From Thermoplasmatales archaeon (lineage in GTDB: Archaea > Thermoplasmatota > Thermoplasmata > Thermoplasmatales > Thermoplasmataceae): DNA of 37,514 nt. The stretch lies in NCBI GenBank assembly GCA_026127925.1, contig JAJSLM010000010.1, positions 1-37,514 of the forward strand, in the 5' to 3' direction. A program made the position numbers and the translations under genes. Below, in pieces: positions 30,921 to 37,514 of this stretch (positions within the stretch are counted from its first letter, which is position 1; each line of letters starts with the position of its first letter). Below the pieces are notes generated by a model. The model saw nothing but the letters and a program-made list of their open reading frames with translations, did no database searches and was not told the DNA's origin.

Positions 30921-31123
30921 CCAGAAGGACTTCCTCGTCAACATCCTGGGGGTATAGGTTTTCCGTCTTCTTTTAAAACTTCCAAATATAATTCTATTGC
31001 TTCCTTGATATTTTTGAAGGTTTCTTCTCTGTTCACCCCCTCAGAGATGCAACCAGGGAGTGCCGGTACACTCACTGTAAACCCCCCATCTTCCTGTGAT
31101 TCAAGTATAACCGTAAATTTCAC
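30913..31123 (-). pseudogene. hicB: HicB antitoxin, C-terminus frameshifted
   Basis: The ATG at 31123 starts a HicB-like protein: MKFTVILESQEDGGFTVSVP, LPGCISEGVNREETFKNIKE and LYLEVLKEDGKPIPP. The frame then stops early (30938). The adjacent frame encodes the expected native tail DVDEEVLLDA and stops at 30913-30915, overlapping the hicA start. One base too many lies in the CCCCCAGG stretch at about 30945-30952. The core HicB fold remains, so a slightly shortened protein of 61 residues might still be made, but it has lost the normal tail. Confidence 0.85.
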
Positions 31124-31413: not shown

Positions 31414-31965
31414 GTGGAATATTTTATTGCTATCACACCCCCGAAGAAATATGGGGAAATAATAACACAATTCCAAAGAATGTGGCCAAATAATGCCTTA
31501 CCAGATTTTGTGGAGCCCCACATCACTGTTAAATCCCAGGCTGGTCTGAATGAAGATGAATACTGGATAGATTCTATAAAAGCAATTTGCAGTAACTTCG
31601 CAATGTTTAAGTTGTCATTAAAAGGTGTAAAATCCTTTGGGAAATCTGTTGTATATATTGGTGTAGAATCCAATAAAATTCGCATATTGCACCGGAAGAT
31701 TGTGGAAGCGATCTCCCCCGATCCTGAAAATAGCAGGAAATACTATGAGCTTGACCTTTATGAACCACATTTAACATTAGGGGCGAAAGAATTTGGAATG
31801 AGTGAAGCAGAATTATCAGAAATGAAAGAGCTTGCAAATAATTGTCTTCACGACTTTCATTCGTTCATTGTAAAGTCAATAAAAATTTACAAGCTAATCG
31901 AAAATAGGTATCAGAAAATTCATGAAATTGATTTAAAGCAAACATGCTCAGATAAGACTTTCTGA
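31414..31965 (+). CDS. 2H phosphoesterase / 2'-5' RNA ligase family protein
   Basis: About 183 residues. The two H-x-T/S-type motifs of 2H phosphoesterases are present: EPHITVKS in the first half and EPHLTLGA in the second, each embedded in the usual strand context. Such enzymes process cyclic phosphates in RNA or nucleotides. The frame opens at a TTG at 31375, but a TATA-like TTAAAATATTAAAC lies at 31378-31391 and would place the transcript start near the GTG at 31414, which also gives the family-like N-terminus EYFIAITPPKKYG. It lies alone between the decayed hicBA and the second repeat copy. Confidence 0.8.
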   Translation: MEYFIAITPPKKYGEIITQFQRMWPNNALPDFVEPHITVKSQAGLNEDEYWIDSIKAICSNFAMFKLSLKGVKSFGKSVVYIGVESNKIRILHRKIVEAISPDPENSRKYYELDLYEPHLTLGAKEFGMSEAELSEMKELANNCLHDFHSFIVKSIKIYKLIENRYQKIHEIDLKQTCSDKTF

Positions 31966-32051
31966 ATTCAGTCAACGCGAACGTTGTTTGATCCTGTGAA
32001 TATGCATATTAAGCCTCTTTCTGGTGTTTTATAGCAGTATAAGGATAGGTA

Positions 32052-32084
32052 GGTATCCAATTAAATAATTAAGTGGATACCAAA
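32052..32084 (+). repeat. 18-bp repeat, copy 2, with inverted partner
   Basis: AATTAAGTGGATACCAAA at 32067-32084 repeats copy 1 at 30661. Here an inverted partner GGTATCCA (32052-32059) faces TGGATACC (32074-32081), forming an 8-bp stem. The two copies are direct repeats 1.4 kb apart and enclose hicBA and the 2H phosphoesterase gene. Confidence 0.65.
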
Positions 32085-32092
32085 AGGCAAGC

Positions 32093-32188
32093 ATGGACAC
32101 TTTTTTTTATGAATGTCTTAAAGGTGCAGTGCCGGGATGCGATTATTGTTTTAATCGCACATTGGATTCATTTATCATCTTCAACTGA
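32093..32188 (+). CDS. Possible 31-residue Cys-rich ORF or gene fragment
   Basis: A short frame from an ATG at 32093, reading MDTFFYECLKGAVPGCDYCF and ending in DSFIIFN, with three cysteines in the pattern C-x7-C-x2-C. No ribosome-binding site stands out. It starts 9 bases after repeat copy 2, so it may be debris of a mobile element or a chance frame. It is convergent to the ABC-2 permease gene. Together with repeat copy 2 it is all that I see in the 317 bases between 31966 and 32282. Confidence 0.2.
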   Translation: MDTFFYECLKGAVPGCDYCFNRTLDSFIIFN

Positions 32189-32282
32189 ACCTATTTATGG
32201 TGGGCTGCTCCCTTAACTCATAAAACAGACGAACTACTATTTTCTGGTGTGTACCTATTCCCTATTATCTTTGTGTGACTTT

Positions 32283-33014
32283 TCACTTATTGCTTTTTAC
32301 TGAAACAAAATAGAGGACTATGATTCCTAAGACAAACAGGAAGAAGACTAAGAAAATTCCACACAATGTTATGAAATTAAAACCATATATTATCCCATCA
32401 ATAGCATAGGAAGCTGATGTCGTCGGTGCAAGGAGAGCTAAAAATCTTAAGTCATAGGGCAATACGCTATAGGGGTAAAATACGGGAGGAAGAATTGAGA
32501 GAGAAAATGAAAGGATACTGAGGACTGGCCATATATCTTTATTCTTCTTTATTCTCTGAGCGACAATATAGCTAATAGACAGCAAGAAAATCCAAACCAT
32601 TAGAAGGATTAAAAGAATCATAACCATTTGGAGTACCGATATATGGGTTACATAGAAAAGCAAGACCATAAATAACACAATTCCGGGAACAACATATACG
32701 ATGTCACCTATGCCTATCCCTATAAGATACGCCCATAGAGGAATTGGAGAGGCAATTACCATATCCTGAAATAAATTATTTGTCTTGTACGATGCTATAT
32801 CCGACAATGCAAAAAAAGCGGAATTAACTATCGTGTAAATAAGTCCACCAATGGCACCATACTTGATTGCGTTCTCTCCCCCAAAGACATAGATAAAGAA
32901 AACAAACGAAATTGGAGACAGGGTAACGGCTGGTAGCGCAAACCTATTACGAAATAAGTATATAATCCCATTTATATGGAGCATATAAAATAGAGCTCTA
33001 ATGCTATTTTTCAT
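32283..33014 (-). CDS. ABC-2 type permease of the putative RiPP operon
   Basis: A 243-residue integral membrane protein with six predicted helices, for example FALPAVTLSPISFVFFIYVF and VPGIVLFMVLLFYVTHISVL, and a short basic C-terminus. The topology and length are those of ABC-2 export permeases. Its start overlaps the ATPase gene by 11 bases, so the two form one exporter. It is the last gene in the order precursor peptide, radical SAM enzyme, ATPase, permease, which suggests export of the modified peptide or self-protection against it. The substrate is inferred from context only. Confidence 0.82.
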   Translation of the reverse strand: MKNSIRALFYMLHINGIIYLFRNRFALPAVTLSPISFVFFIYVFGGENAIKYGAIGGLIYTIVNSAFFALSDIASYKTNNLFQDMVIASPIPLWAYLIGIGIGDIVYVVPGIVLFMVLLFYVTHISVLQMVMILLILLMVWIFLLSISYIVAQRIKKNKDIWPVLSILSFSLSILPPVFYPYSVLPYDLRFLALLAPTTSASYAIDGIIYGFNFITLCGIFLVFFLFVLGIIVLYFVSVKSNK

Positions 33015-33954
33015 AATTATCTTCCACCATGCTTATGAATACATCTTCAAGAGTAACTTTACCTATGGTAATCTCCATACCTCCTTTCACAAGCTGGTTA
33101 ACTGCCCCATCAAGCTCTCCATCTTTTAGGAATATTACCAAAGAATCATTAATTTTCCTCTTGAAAGCGTATTGAGACGTAAGAGCACCGTTATCATAGT
33201 TTTTTATAGTGATCTTATGCTTATATCCAAACTGTTGGATAAGTTCTTTTGGAGTACCTTGTCTAAGTGACTTACCATCTTTTATTATTAGGACAATATC
33301 GGACAATAATTCAGCTTCTTCCATATAATGTGTTGTCAAGAATATAGTAGTTTTATCTTTCACTTCTACGATTCTTTTCCACACTCTTTGACGGGCAATA
33401 GGATCTAGCCCAATTGTTGGCTCATCTAAGAATATTATATCTGGTTCCGAAGCAAAAGCCATAGCCACTAGGACCATCTGTTTTTGTCCTACGGATAAAG
33501 TAAAACATCGTTGGTCTGAAAAATTATCGATGAGAAAATCATTCAAGATGATTTCAGTTCTTTTCCTCGATTCCACGGTGCCTAACCCTCTCATCCTTAA
33601 GTAAAAATAGATGCTCTCCCTAGGGGTAAGATATTCGATTGGCTTACCTTCCTGAGGGACAATAGAGATCCTGTTTCGGATTTGTTCAGGAGATGTGTCC
33701 GGGTCAAAACCAAAAACAGATAAGTCTCCAGAATCCCTTCTTAATAATGTTGACAGAATTTTTACCGTTGTTGTCTTCCCTGCGCCATTTCTTCCCAGTA
33801 AAGTGAACACTCCACCCCTTTTGAATGTAAAGGAGAGATTATCAAGAGCCTTAATATCGTCCCTTCCGTGATATGATTTTGTTATATCCCTCGCAATTAC
33901 CAAGTCTTCATTGCGATTAATATTTCCATTAAGTGTCAGATTTTGCACCTTCAC
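33004..33954 (-). CDS. ABC exporter ATPase of the putative RiPP operon
   Basis: A 316-residue ABC-2 type ATPase. Walker A is LLGRNGAGKTTTVKILSTLL, Q-loop IVPQEG, the signature is the variant LSVGQKQMVLVAMAF (LSVGQ rather than LSGGQ), Walker B IIFLDEPTIGLDP, and the switch histidine is in TTHYMEEAELL. A C-terminal ~90-residue extension after the ATPase core is typical of drug and peptide exporters of the CcmA/DrrA type. The GTG start at 33954 lies inside the radical SAM gene (26-base overlap), so translation is coupled. It would energise the permease at 32283-33014. Confidence 0.9.
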   Translation of the reverse strand: MKVQNLTLNGNINRNEDLVIARDITKSYHGRDDIKALDNLSFTFKRGGVFTLLGRNGAGKTTTVKILSTLLRRDSGDLSVFGFDPDTSPEQIRNRISIVPQEGKPIEYLTPRESIYFYLRMRGLGTVESRKRTEIILNDFLIDNFSDQRCFTLSVGQKQMVLVAMAFASEPDIIFLDEPTIGLDPIARQRVWKRIVEVKDKTTIFLTTHYMEEAELLSDIVLIIKDGKSLRQGTPKELIQQFGYKHKITIKNYDNGALTSQYAFKRKINDSLVIFLKDGELDGAVNQLVKGGMEITIGKVTLEDVFISMVEDNYEK

Positions 33955-35371
33955 TTTTCATTACGTCATTAAAAATATTCCTTAATCCCCAATTAATAAT
34001 AGACTTAGCATAAGGACAAAACATTTTGTCTATATTCCAAATGCTACCTGTTGAATAGAAAGCATTATAGGGACAGCCACCGCCGCAAATTGATATAGCC
34101 TCACACTCTGTGCACTGTTCCATATTTATTGGCGACCTTCTCCGCCACTCATTGAATAAAGGACTATTATCTATAATTGAGAATAAGGTGCTTTCATTAG
34201 TTATGGAATACTTAAAATGGTTAGCGTTGTTAATAAACGCTTGACACACGCCTACCTTACCCTCAGGAGAAATGGTTAATTGGCCACTGCATGCTGCACA
34301 ATCGCTCCATTGGAAATTCTTGTGGAACAGGGCATTCGCTTGCTTGATAACAGGATAAATTAGAATATCCTTTTTACGGTATTTCTCATAAACCTTTAGA
34401 AGTGCGAGAGCGGTATTTTCACTGAGTCCTTGTATTTCCGGGTCTTTGAAATCTTCAGCCATCAAGATGTTGTATCCAATTTTCTTAAACCCGAGGGAGA
34501 CCAGGTGGTCTGTAACTTCTTCCAACTTTTCAACATTGTTCTTGGTTATAGTAGTCGAGGCAGTAACTTCTATTCCCTTGTGTTGAAGTAATCTGAGCCC
34601 ACGTAAAACGTCTTCATATGTCCCACTACCACTCACATAAACTCGATTCTTGTCGTGAAGCTCTTTAGCTCCATCCATCGAAATTGACATGGTTACATTA
34701 TTAAGCTTACATAAGTGGGCTATCTCTTCATCTATAAGAGTCCCATTGGAAATTATTGCAATTCTGATTCTAACATTATTTGCCAATCTATTATTCTCTT
34801 TCAACTCTTTCTCTAGTTTCCTAATATATTGTATTGAGAAAGATACCGTGCGTCGTGCCACAAAGGGTTCTCCCCCATATAATATAACCTTTTGACTCAC
34901 TACCTTAGAGCTTATTGTAGCCTCCATTATTTGTTCAATGGACCGTTTTGCTGTGTCAATACTCATTGTTGATGGATTTTCCTTAGAAGTTGTTAGAAAA
35001 CAATATTTGCATCTTAAATTACAAGATCTAGTCACTACCAAATATGAAACCCCAACCTTAGGTATATTTGCATTTGTAACTGTTTGATTAGTCTTCCATT
35101 GCTCATTATCATAGATAGGTACTAGAAAGTGTTGATTCAAAAGTATTGATACGAGATTGCTAATAGTTTTATAGTCGTCATTCTGGAGAAAATCGTCTAT
35201 GCTCAAAGGTGCTTTAAATTTATCATAAATCATCAAGCTTTCGTCGTCAAGAAAAATTATATTCATCAGCAGACGGTCATAAAGAATCGTATATTTTCTT
35301 CCACTATACATCTGGCTAAGTCTATACGTGTACCTTGACTGCTTCAATGGGACTTCCATACCATTCTCCAT
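33929..35371 (-). CDS. Radical SAM/SPASM peptide maturase with N-terminal RRE-like region
   Basis: A 480-residue enzyme. Residues 117-124 hold the CxxxCxxC cluster motif (RSCNLRCKYCF), followed by YGGEPF and the SMDGA segment of the radical SAM barrel. The C-terminus carries a SPASM domain: CAACSGQLTISPEGKVGVCQ and CTECEAISICGGGCPYNAF with a final FCPY, enough cysteines for two auxiliary Fe-S clusters. Residues about 25-90 (LMNIIFLDDESLMIYDKF, then LSIDDFL and VSILLNQHFLV) resemble the PqqD-like recognition element that binds leader peptides. The ATG at 35371 has a strong GGAGGT ribosome-binding site 10 bases upstream. The earlier in-frame start is less likely. A small Cys-Cys peptide gene lies 85 bases upstream. 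Confidence 0.9.
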   Translation of the reverse strand: MENGMEVPLKQSRYTYRLSQMYSGRKYTILYDRLLMNIIFLDDESLMIYDKFKAPLSIDDFLQNDDYKTISNLVSILLNQHFLVPIYDNEQWKTNQTVTNANIPKVGVSYLVVTRSCNLRCKYCFLTTSKENPSTMSIDTAKRSIEQIMEATISSKVVSQKVILYGGEPFVARRTVSFSIQYIRKLEKELKENNRLANNVRIRIAIISNGTLIDEEIAHLCKLNNVTMSISMDGAKELHDKNRVYVSGSGTYEDVLRGLRLLQHKGIEVTASTTITKNNVEKLEEVTDHLVSLGFKKIGYNILMAEDFKDPEIQGLSENTALALLKVYEKYRKKDILIYPVIKQANALFHKNFQWSDCAACSGQLTISPEGKVGVCQAFINNANHFKYSITNESTLFSIIDNSPLFNEWRRRSPINMEQCTECEAISICGGGCPYNAFYSTGSIWNIDKMFCPYAKSIINWGLRNIFNDVMKSEGAKSDT

Positions 35372-35456
35372 GATGACAACAACCTCCTTTCCTTCTCGTA
35401 ACAACAATAAACACAAAAAAATAGGGTAATTATTTTATCCGTTTACTGCATTGATT

Positions 35457-35558
35457 TCACGGTGTGCAGCACTTGGAAAAGACATCCATATCCATTGTTT
35501 CGTTTACTTTTCCAAAAACTGCCTCTCTTTCCTTCTGGGAAACAACTCTATAGTCCAT
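35457..35558 (-). CDS. Putative RiPP precursor peptide ending in Cys-Cys-Thr-Pro
   Basis: A 33-residue ORF on the minus strand, directly upstream of the radical SAM gene and too short for usual gene calling. It starts at the ATG at 35558 with a charged leader-like part (MDYRVVSQKEREAVFGKVNE) and ends MDVFSKCCTP. The only two cysteines are adjacent and four residues from the C-terminus, as expected for a core peptide modified by a radical SAM enzyme. A TATA box 34 bases before the ATG gives a nearly leaderless transcript. The position as first gene of a precursor-maturase-exporter operon is the main support. Which residues are modified is unknown. Confidence 0.68.
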   Translation of the reverse strand: MDYRVVSQKEREAVFGKVNETMDMDVFSKCCTP

Positions 35559-35587
35559 TTTAAATCTACGTTATATCGAAATGGTAC

Positions 35588-35596
35588 TATATAAAT
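35588..35596 (-). promoter_or_regulatory. TATA box of the RiPP operon
   Basis: On the minus strand ATTTATATA, centred about 34 bases before the precursor ATG. Transcription would begin around 35566, eight or so bases before the ATG, making the precursor the first gene on the transcript. Confidence 0.55.
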
Positions 35597-35745
35597 TCAT
35601 ATCCTGACATGTACGGGTAAGACCGAAGAGAGCTATTGAGATGCTTTACGTTGCCTACACTATATATCGATTATTTGTTTCCCAGCTGTGAATTGGTTAA
35701 TTTCCATTTCTTGTTCAAACTTCTTTTTAAGAAAGGTTATCGCAA

Positions 35746-36257
35746 AGGAAAGCCCGTATTATTACCAATTGAAATTTTAAGGGCTTTCCTGCGAACCCCC
35801 CTCCCCGCCGAGCGTAGTAGGTCTGAACGTAGTGAAGACCCGAAGTGTCCCGAAGGGACACGTAGCCCACACGTGTGAAACACGTGGGGGTGCGAAGCAC
35901 AGGACACGGGGGGTCGGTGGACAGCCCGAAGGGCTGGACAAATCAGGATAATAGGCTGTTGCGAAGCAACAAGTGAACGCCGAAGGCGGACACGTGCCTA
36001 TACCTGATTAGACCTCCGAGACGAGCGAAGGCAAAAAGAGGGGGGGAATTTGTGAGCGAAGCGAACAAAGGAGGGGTGAATTTTTGCCGTAGCGAAAGCC
36101 GACCCTCCGTTCAGGAGGTTGGCGTGTCGTAGAGTGTCCTGTGCTTCGCACACGCTGAGTGTGAAACACGAAGTGCGTGGGTGCGTAGCGAGGCGGGGTA
36201 AGCTAAAGCGGACTGCGGAATAAAGGGTCTACCCGAAATGGAGCAGTCTTACAGACT
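35746..36257. repeat. Hairpin-dense GC-rich block with GAA-triloop mini-hairpins
   Basis: About 500 non-coding bases, markedly richer in G and C than the flanks and made of short perfect stems, most closing on GAA. Examples: TGTCCC-GAA-GGGACA (35846-35860), CACGTGT-GAA-ACACGTG (35870-35886), GTGC-GAA-GCAC (35890-35900), AGCCC-GAA-GGGCT (35923-35935), GTTGC-GAA-GCAAC (35958-35970), CGCC-GAA-GGCG (35978-35988), GTGT-GAA-ACAC (36159-36169) and its mirrored form TGTGC-TTC-GCACA (36140-36152). Larger pairings enclose them: AGGAAAGCCC (35746) with GGGCTTTCCT (35781-35790), AATCAGG (35941) with CCTGATT (36003-36009), GGCAAAAA (36029) with TTTTTGCC. No convincing protein is encoded. It may be a structured RNA or a DNA element such as an origin. 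Confidence 0.75.
35890..36151. repeat. 18-bp perfect long-range inverted repeat inside the hairpin block
   Basis: GTGCGAAGCACAGGACAC at 35890-35907 is the exact reverse complement of 36134-36151. The arms are 226 bases apart and enclose most of the other hairpins. Outside them CCCCGCC (about 35803-35809) can pair with GGCGGGG (36192-36198), so the whole block can fold as one branched structure. Confidence 0.8.
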
Positions 36258-36454
36258 ACAAACTAAATATATTGGATAGGGCTTGATTAATTCAATTAAC
36301 TAAGAAAATGTAGTAAAGAAAATTAATAATATGTTAGATGTGCCTTCCAAATAGACCCATGTGTAGCTACTACGTGTCGTTGCACGTGTTTAGGCGTGTC
36401 CGCCTTCCGCCAAAAATTCTAAAAAATGCTCAAAACCTCTTAGAATGTAGCTAT

Positions 36455-36611
36455 AAGTAATACAGAAAAGTCAGTAGTTGTGGAAAATCCACAACAGTAA
36501 TACGCCCTCTCTCCTCTCTTGTTACTGAACAATTAGTATAGCATAAGTAATACTAATTGTTGTTTTGAGTTTCGGCGGGTCAGTAGTAATAATATGAAAA
36601 AGTCAGTATAG
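36455..36611. repeat. Iteron-like short repeats and palindrome upstream of plasmid-like genes
   Basis: AGTAATAC occurs three times (36456, 36496, 36546, the first and third preceded by A) and GTCAGTA three times (near 36470, 36579, 36602). A perfect 10-bp inverted repeat CAATTAGTAT (36530-36539) / ATACTAATTG (36550-36559) surrounds the third AGTAATAC. The stretch 36300-36745 contains no gene. Such arrays often bind replication or partition proteins or repressors; that is inference. Confidence 0.5.
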
Positions 36612-36745
36612 CTGAAAAAAGTATTATTATAAAGCATCAGTTTAGAAATCGTTTTAGACATTTTTGGTATTACTTGATACTTTGCTACACATTCCTTTCC
36701 ACATACCATTAAAAACCTTCGTAGCGTAATAATATTGGTGTAAAT

Positions 36746-37090
36746 ATGACTGAACAAACAAACGAAAAAATGAAAACGACATTATCAACTCTGCCCATAG
36801 AAAAATCTCTGCTTACCAGAGAAAAGGGCGAAATTATTGGCGATGAGCTGGTAATTATGAACGTAGAGCCGATAACTACACACTCACCAGAAGGCGAGGA
36901 CAGAAATGTTAATCTCTACACGGCACGGGATAACAAAATAGACAGCGTAGTTATGTTTTTTGGGTCTGCAATAATGGATAAACAGAACGTTAAGCCCTCT
37001 GACCACGTTGTTATAGACCTGCGGGCTAGCAAGGAAGGAAGAAAATACTATCTTTTCATTGTCCTGCACAACTACGAGGTGGAAAAATGA
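36746..37090 (+). CDS. Hypothetical plasmid/virus-type protein, 114 residues
   Basis: A soluble protein of unknown family. After a flexible charged N-terminus (about 30 residues) it is rich in beta strands: GDELVIMNVEPITTH, VNLYTARDNKIDSVVMFFG and HVVIDLRASKEGRKYYLFIV. The pattern could suit an OB fold as in single-strand DNA-binding proteins, but no diagnostic motif is present. It starts with an ATG at 36746, preceded by a TATA-like AATAATATTG near 36727-36736. Its stop overlaps the next gene (ATGATG), forming an operon of three small genes typical of archaeal plasmids and viruses. Confidence 0.6.
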   Translation: MTEQTNEKMKTTLSTLPIEKSLLTREKGEIIGDELVIMNVEPITTHSPEGEDRNVNLYTARDNKIDSVVMFFGSAIMDKQNVKPSDHVVIDLRASKEGRKYYLFIVLHNYEVEK

Positions 37091-37308
37091 TGACTACTAC
37101 CAGTTTCAAAATAGACAGTGATAACTTGGAGCTTGTTAGCGAGCTTTCCAAAAGCCGAGAGTTAAGCAAAATCCTTAACTTTCTTCTGCGCGAATACGCA
37201 AAGGATAAGGGCTTTACCTCTTCTTTCAATAAAATACAGGCATTAGAGGACAAGTTAGCAAAGAAAGATGAACAGTATGAAGCACTAAAAAAAGAGGTGT
37301 CGGAATGA
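37087..37308 (+). CDS. Small ribbon-helix-helix-like protein with coiled-coil tail
   Basis: A 73-residue protein. It has a short strand TTTSFKIDSDNLELVSELSK followed by two helices (RELSKILNFLLREYAKDKG), the outline of a MetJ/Arc ribbon-helix-helix DNA-binding domain, and then a heptad-like tail (IQALEDKLAKKDEQYEALKK) likely to form a coiled coil. It overlaps the preceding gene and the next one by four bases each. A role as repressor or copy-control protein of the element is plausible, and the repeats upstream would be candidate operators. This is inference. Confidence 0.55.
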   Translation: MMTTTSFKIDSDNLELVSELSKSRELSKILNFLLREYAKDKGFTSSFNKIQALEDKLAKKDEQYEALKKEVSE

Positions 37309-37496
37309 GCGGTAAGCGTATTAAGTGCTGGGTTTGTAGAACGCCGTTATGCCAATTAGAAATGACGGATAATTGGTATTGTCCTTCCTGCCAAAAGTGG
37401 CTTACTATTCCTTCCAGAAAGCATTACCTAAAAGGCAAAAAGAGAGGGTATAATAATACCTTCCCTCCTTCTATCGTGTCATACAAAGCGATTTAG
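37305..37496 (+). CDS. Small zinc-ribbon protein
   Basis: A 63-residue protein with two CxxC-type pairs: CWVCRTPLC in the first dozen residues and WYCPSCQKW about 20 residues later, forming a zinc ribbon. The C-terminal third is basic (RKHYLKGKKRGYNN), suggesting nucleic-acid binding. The ATG overlaps the stop of the ribbon-helix-helix-like gene (ATGA), so it is the third gene of the small operon. Short zinc-ribbon proteins of this sort are common in archaeal mobile elements. The window ends 18 bases after the stop. Confidence 0.6.
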   Translation: MSGKRIKCWVCRTPLCQLEMTDNWYCPSCQKWLTIPSRKHYLKGKKRGYNNTFPPSIVSYKAI

Positions 37497-37514
37497 AAGG
37501 CATAATTTCTGAAA

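Follow-up and report, generated by a model that had tools for sequence, protein, structure and literature searches.

The window analysed here, a 37,514-nucleotide (nt) contig of a Thermoplasmatales archaeon (JAJSLM010000010.1 of assembly GCA_026127925.1, forward strand), carries a compact operon that probably encodes a working or recently working pathway for a ribosomally synthesized and post-translationally modified peptide (RiPP). A 33-residue peptide would be the substrate of its radical S-adenosylmethionine (SAM)/SPASM maturase, a reading to which we assign a probability of roughly 0.7. On the minus strand, the operon consists, from 5' to 3', of a TATA box, a 33-codon open reading frame (ORF), the maturase gene, an ABC ATPase gene and an ABC-2 permease gene. 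The maturase is related to the maturases of the bacterial FibroRumin peptides, and the operon travels as exchangeable cargo on an integrative, plasmid-like element that sits in the chromosome at a tRNA-Cys gene.

The TATA box (TTTATATA, 35588-35595, minus strand) is located 30-37 nt upstream of the ATG of the short ORF, and its octamer occurs just three times in the window when both strands are counted. The spacing fits an archaeal transcription start a few bases ahead of the ATG, and the transcript would thus be nearly leaderless. The ORF itself (35457-35558, minus strand) encodes the candidate precursor MDYRVVSQKEREAVFGKVNETMDMDVFSKCCTP, whose start is set by a TAA codon in the same frame 15 nt further upstream. 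In the gap between precursor and maturase, a T-rich stretch (35401-35421, minus strand), which may act as a partial terminator, is followed by a Shine-Dalgarno-like GGAGG (35383-35387, minus strand), 11 nt upstream of the maturase ATG at 35371. The maturase gene ends at 33929 and overlaps by 26 nt with the gene for the DrrA-like ABC transporter ATPase (33004-33954, minus strand; start codon GTG at 33954), which in turn shares 11 nt with the gene for the 243-residue ABC-2 permease (32283-33014, minus strand). The ATPase matches PF00005 (ABC_tran, 2.7e-27) and reaches 219 bits with TIGR01188, below the cut-off of that model, while the permease matches PF01061 (ABC2_membrane, 1.3e-6). The operon contains no dedicated protease, and the leader could be removed by a host protease or not be removed at all. 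A first-pass annotation, made from the nucleotide letters alone, had described the TATA box, the 33-codon ORF, the radical SAM/SPASM enzyme and the overlapping ABC-2 exporter, and had taken the order of precursor, maturase and exporter as that of a RiPP operon; sequence and Pfam comparisons locate all four components as described, on the minus strand, and support the operon type.

The 33-mer ends in VFSKCCTP, with the adjacent residues Cys30 and Cys31 (codons at 35466-35471, minus strand) as its presumed core. Its codon log-odds score, +0.116 bit per codon, falls at the 39th percentile of the coding fragments in the window. Genuine coding fragments score 0.141 ± 0.107, whereas spurious ORFs of comparable size score -0.118 ± 0.158 and reach the value of the 33-mer in 6.5% of cases. 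ORFs on the opposite strand across the same stretch have negative codon scores, and none of the other short ORFs listed in the gap and downstream is a better candidate precursor. The case for the 33-mer as the maturase substrate is circumstantial and draws on its position, the well-spaced TATA box, its codon usage and its leader.

The maturase (33929-35371, minus strand; 480 residues) contains a Radical_SAM domain (2.9e-21) and a SPASM domain (3.7e-5) according to Pfam. The CxxxCxxC motif of the radical SAM cluster (C117, C121, C124; 35000-35023, minus strand) is invariant in alignments, and the cysteines of the SPASM/auxiliary cluster region (C358, C376, C420, C423, C429, C433, C452; 34016-34300, minus strand) are conserved. 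Comparison with 18,950 NCBIfam models identified TIGR04136, the FibroRumin maturase model, as the best match over residues 13-466 (205.1 bits, E 1.8e-60), a score that stays below the TIGR04136 cut-off of 400 bits and leaves the enzyme outside the family proper. The runner-up is PapB (172 bits, also below cut-off), while the sulfatase maturase model reaches 138 bits. A tree built from 22 SPASM proteins, with long end branches, places the window maturase as the outermost branch of a six-member FibroRumin-type clade (support 99/98). The other members are the FibroRumin maturases of a Campylobacter plasmid and of G614, a single genome from a Clostridia-wide search, and a second set from three small bacterial genomes (G479, G857, G905).

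The predicted structure agrees with a role in peptide maturation. The full-length AlphaFold2 model, built from 18 sequences, has a mean predicted local distance difference test (pLDDT) value of 87.3 and a predicted TM-score of 0.86, with pLDDT values of 91-93 across residues 11-50. Residues 15-85 (35117-35329, minus strand) are predicted to form strands at 15-22, 25-32 and 38-41, helices at 43-53, 58-62 and 67-79, and a final strand at 83-85. This βββ-ααα-β order is the one expected of a recognition element, as in PqqD-like domains. When folded alone, the N-terminal domain is modelled poorly (pLDDT 56), and its reading as a recognition element therefore rests on the full-length model. The best match in the PDB is CteB, both by sequence (4.8e-28) and by fold (TM-score 0.72 over 474 columns, nearly the whole chain); TigE is the next fold match, both being RiPP maturases, and the list of fold matches further includes ChlB and anSME structures. 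The resemblance of the maturase N-terminus to a leader-recognition element, proposed in the first-pass annotation, is thus borne out by the full-length prediction.

The leader of the 33-mer points to the same bacterial family. The two bacterial FibroRumin loci, in Campylobacter and in G614, encode their precursors, four in all, immediately ahead of the maturase gene, and three of these four peptides contain an [LI]FG motif located 11, 12 and 12 residues ahead of the first cysteine. In the 33-mer, VFG precedes the first cysteine by 13 residues and fits the pattern [LIV]FG at 11-13 residues before the first cysteine, a pattern derived here from those three peptides. In the window peptide the motif is part of EAVFGKVN (residues 12-19; 35502-35525, minus strand), the likely recognition strand, which compares with SELFGLIN, KKLFGLIL and KEIFGEVN in the bacterial peptides. 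The closest leader is that of G614 (ETKKEIFGEVNVEA, as compared to KEREAVFGKVNETM in the window); only 0.24% of shuffled sequences align to it as well as the window leader does, which ranks fourth among 6,525 ORFs. The motif [LIVM]FG.[VIL], followed by a cysteine 8-12 residues further on, turns up in just 3 ORFs when about 7,200 unrelated small ones are scanned. All of these leader statistics are flattering, because the motif was chosen after the sequences had been viewed. In three small bacterial genomes, a Cys-rich peptide (..SCANCTACTCSNCTCSGNC..; L023 5518-5673, L105 2693-2842, L106 2322-2468) is encoded directly downstream, not upstream, of a second type of FibroRumin-like maturase, and an apparent methyltransferase gene is located upstream.

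The mobile setting of the operon became apparent at the contig end. The last 99 bases of the window (37416-37514) are identical, in reversed orientation, to the right end (441057) of another contig of the same genome, C1, as detected by BLAST. Such an exact overlap is expected at an assembler path break, so the two contigs are neighbours and can be joined. Beyond the joint, C1 contains an insertion sequence-like transposase pair (PF13592, PF13358), an ATPase gene and an integrase-like gene beside tRNA-Cys. The outer border of the element is an attR-like site in the window (CCTACCTATCCTT, 32041-32053, minus strand), which reproduces 13 nt of the 3' end of tRNA-Cys and lies some 230 bases beyond the stop codon of the permease gene. 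This copy bounds the element, and the operon therefore lies inside it. The element spans about 12.5 kb, the sum of C1 from position 433941 to its end and of window positions 37514 to 32041, minus the overlap. A whole sister element, L011, is present in the genome of another species of the same genus (G048, contig C132), with a 17-nt tRNA end (TCCCTACCTATCCTTTT) at both ends; the 40 bases at window positions 32041-32080 are 87.5% identical to its matching end. An integrase gene adjoining tRNA-Cys, a duplicated tRNA end as border and a sister element with both borders thus together define an element inserted at a tRNA gene.

The sister element also shares the backbone of the window element. It contains an intact integrase (L011 14294-15628; PHROG integrase family match, 2.4e-6), an ATPase 36% identical to that of the window element, and a hairpin-rich box. 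A backbone gene for 114 residues (36746-37090, plus strand) is 47% identical to L011 8699-9079 (126 residues), and the next gene, for 73 residues (37087-37308, plus strand), has a counterpart at the same place (L011 9080-9295) that is similar by eye. The hairpin-rich box (35708-36124) contains inverted repeats and many short palindromes and is GC-richer than its surroundings. Its first 107 bases (35708-35814) are 93% identical by BLAST to L011 323-429, within a box that covers L011 323-679, and a global DNA alignment of the two boxes is mostly noise outside about 110 nt. The box might serve the element as an origin of replication or of transfer. Rfam gave no match in 31900-37514, and neither the box nor the element ATPase nor the integrase matched IMG/VR. 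The only plasmid match to the ATPase is in pPO1 of Picrophilus oshimae, in agreement with a Thermoplasmatales-like host. At L011 3965-8091, the sister element carries other cargo: two radical SAM/SPASM enzymes of 508 and 458 residues around an MFS-like transporter, the smaller enzyme being nearest to CefB (286 bits); no clear precursor ORF was found in this cargo. A gene for a HicB-like antitoxin (30938-31123, minus strand; PF15919, 4.1e-12) is located just outside the element border in the window.

Close relatives of the maturase are absent from the other genomes searched, both among 77 genomes of the family, where the best other match is 4.8e-32, and among 390 genomes of the phylum (E up to 1e-30). 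With TIGR04136 at 1e-35, only 1 of 400 class genomes was detected, which is the source genome itself. More distant SPASM relatives (E up to 1e-20; 26-27% identical) are found in only five other of the 77 family genomes, and those that were tested fit models other than TIGR04136 better; a search of IMG/VR with the maturase returned general SPASM enzymes only. Unlike the maturase, the ABC ATPase of the operon has many relatives at about 40% identity in the family genomes. Spread by means of the element would account for the patchy occurrence of the maturase. The first-pass annotation is supported on the operon type and on the N-terminal fold, but missed the role of the operon as cargo of a tRNA-Cys element, which the overlap with C1 and the repeated tRNA end reveal. 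Its remark that the core motif is not recognisable from a named family holds for the core, which remains unmatched, but not for the leader and the maturase, which are no orphans and both resemble the bacterial FibroRumin system.

In the proposed pathway, the 33-mer would be transcribed first, from the TATA promoter and on an almost leaderless message. The recognition-element-like domain at the maturase N-terminus could then receive the residues around EAVFGKVN as a docked strand. The radical SAM centre, assisted by the SPASM auxiliary clusters, may abstract a hydrogen in the VFSKCCTP region or from Asp23 or Asp25, and the resulting carbon would be joined to Cys30 and/or Cys31 as one or two thioethers. 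The ABC-2 exporter would finally move the product out of the cell and may confer self-protection. A thioether from Cys30 or Cys31 to an upstream residue, perhaps Asp23 or Asp25, is favoured at the outset, since the nearest enzymes are Cys-directed and since PapB is reported to tolerate changes in how thiol and carboxylate are oriented and spaced (PMC9413430). For thioether chemistry specifically, we consider the odds close to even, tilting slightly against.

Several observations weigh against the assignment of the 33-mer as a functional FibroRumin-like precursor. TIGR04135, the FibroRumin precursor model (cut-off 45 bits), does not match the 33-mer; it likewise misses the G614 precursor, although the maturase of that locus exceeds the TIGR04136 cut-off. 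When chimeric peptides were scored with TIGR04135, the window leader was clearly above six of seven shuffled leaders and exceeded the seventh by only 1.8 bits, and the native bacterial frame peptide was itself missed. The score summed over three bacterial leaders is weaker than that for the closest one (0.6% of shuffles, rank 22 of 6,525). The core contains two cysteines, as opposed to six or seven in the motif-bearing bacterial peptides, and has no acidic or aromatic tail. The 33-mer has no homologue among plasmids, finds only itself in its own genome, and matches no Pfam or NCBIfam family. Finally, the integrase-like gene of this element is split into two frames by a frameshift (C1:433991-435236). 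On present evidence, the operon fails the curated tests for FibroRumin membership and yet appears to work like a FibroRumin operon.

Alternatively, the 33-codon ORF might be spurious, or a regulatory upstream ORF, with the true substrate encoded elsewhere. The window contains 348 short ORFs of 25-80 residues, and the 33-mer lacks a detectable homologue, but its codon score, its leader motif and the placement of both promoter and ORF jointly argue against this explanation, and no better candidate is listed in the gap or downstream, so that we regard it as improbable. A precursor that is truncated, or decaying together with its element, a stop codon having cut a longer Cys-containing core, is likewise of low probability. 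The frame stays open past the TGA (35430-35459, minus strand) and encodes NQCSKRIK before a TAA, with a third cysteine if read through, and both the split integrase and the far smaller number of cysteines than in FibroRumin peptides would fit such a loss. However, the read-through adds just one cysteine and stops after eight codons, and the maturase, ATPase and permease genes are intact and tightly overlapping, a state that decay would not long preserve. A functional operon with the 33-mer as the substrate remains the preferred reading.

Within this operon reading, the product could also be something other than a thioether, such as an epimerised residue, a carbon-carbon link or a side-chain ring, leaving the two cysteines free for a disulfide or for metal binding. 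SPASM maturases carry out many reactions, and TigE and ChlB are the next distinct fold matches after CteB. To our knowledge, neither of them is a classic thioether enzyme. In addition, the 33-mer lacks a CX3D/E motif downstream of its cysteines, unlike PapA. On the other hand, the closest sequence models, FibroRumin and PapB, describe maturases of Cys-rich peptides, the closest solved structure is that of the thioether maturase CteB, and with the flexibility reported for PapB Asp23 or Asp25 could serve, which makes a non-thioether product rather unlikely. Very improbable is an enzyme without any peptide pathway, that is, an activator resembling anaerobic sulfatase maturases beside an unrelated multidrug exporter. 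Such a reading could draw on the presence of anSME among the fold matches and on the similarity of the ATPase to general DrrA-type exporters, but the sulfatase maturase model scores well below TIGR04136, the N-terminus is recognition-like and the genes overlap as an operon; it was rejected for its weaker model score and for the genomic context.

A functional precursor-maturase-exporter operon, as preferred here, would have consequences beyond this genome. A single enzyme and a 33-residue peptide with two cysteines are about the simplest test case for in vitro work. A more far-reaching proposal, which we put forward only tentatively and hold to be somewhat doubtful, is that the operon represents a minimal archaeal FibroRumin-like branch in which a single cysteine pair is the whole modifiable core, spread among Thermoplasmata by a tRNA-Cys element that swaps radical SAM cassettes in its cargo slot, in the way that bacteria exchange bacteriocin genes. 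If Thermoplasmata do trade peptide cassettes on mobile elements, small-peptide competition or signalling would be implied, and the element would show where to seek more of them.

Among known systems, the FibroRumin family (TIGR04135/TIGR04136), a group of bacterial peptides described to date largely at the sequence level and without mention in the literature searched, is the closest. TIGR04136 covers the window maturase over its full length including the N-terminal domain, a short precursor is encoded directly upstream, and the [LIV]FG leader motif is found at a similar distance to the first cysteine. In contrast, the window maturase reaches half the cut-off score and stands outside the bacterial clade, its precursor is unrecognised by the model, and the system has two adjacent cysteines, no C-terminal tail, an archaeal host and a separate ABC-2 exporter. 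PapB and other ranthipeptide maturases (freyrasin) resemble it as Cys-directed radical SAM enzymes and provide the second-best model, but the 33-mer has no PapA-type CX3D/E motif: no Asp or Glu follows its cysteines, while D23 and D25 precede them. CteB, which matures SCIFF peptides such as thermocellin, is the best solved structure by sequence and by fold, yet shares only 21% identity, and SCIFF peptides contain six cysteines instead of two, which places the 33-mer outside this group.

For archaea, the sections of a 2025 survey considered here (PMC12144867) predict ranthipeptide- and sactipeptide-type clusters to be widespread, with Thermoplasmatota contributing 17.6% of all predicted archaeal clusters. 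According to the same sections, the archaeal RiPPs confirmed by experiment before that work numbered just two and were both lanthipeptides, and the work itself characterised lanthipeptides; this maturase type and its setting as element cargo are not described in them. The element in turn recalls plasmid pPO1 of Picrophilus oshimae (NC_016049), whose ATP-binding protein is 31% identical to the element ATPase, but pPO1 is a 7.6-kb circular plasmid with a Cdc6-like gene, a recombinase and no annotated radical SAM cargo. Compared with these systems, the new aspects are a core reduced to a minimal CC pair, an archaeal branch within this maturase group and the setting of the operon as mobile cargo.

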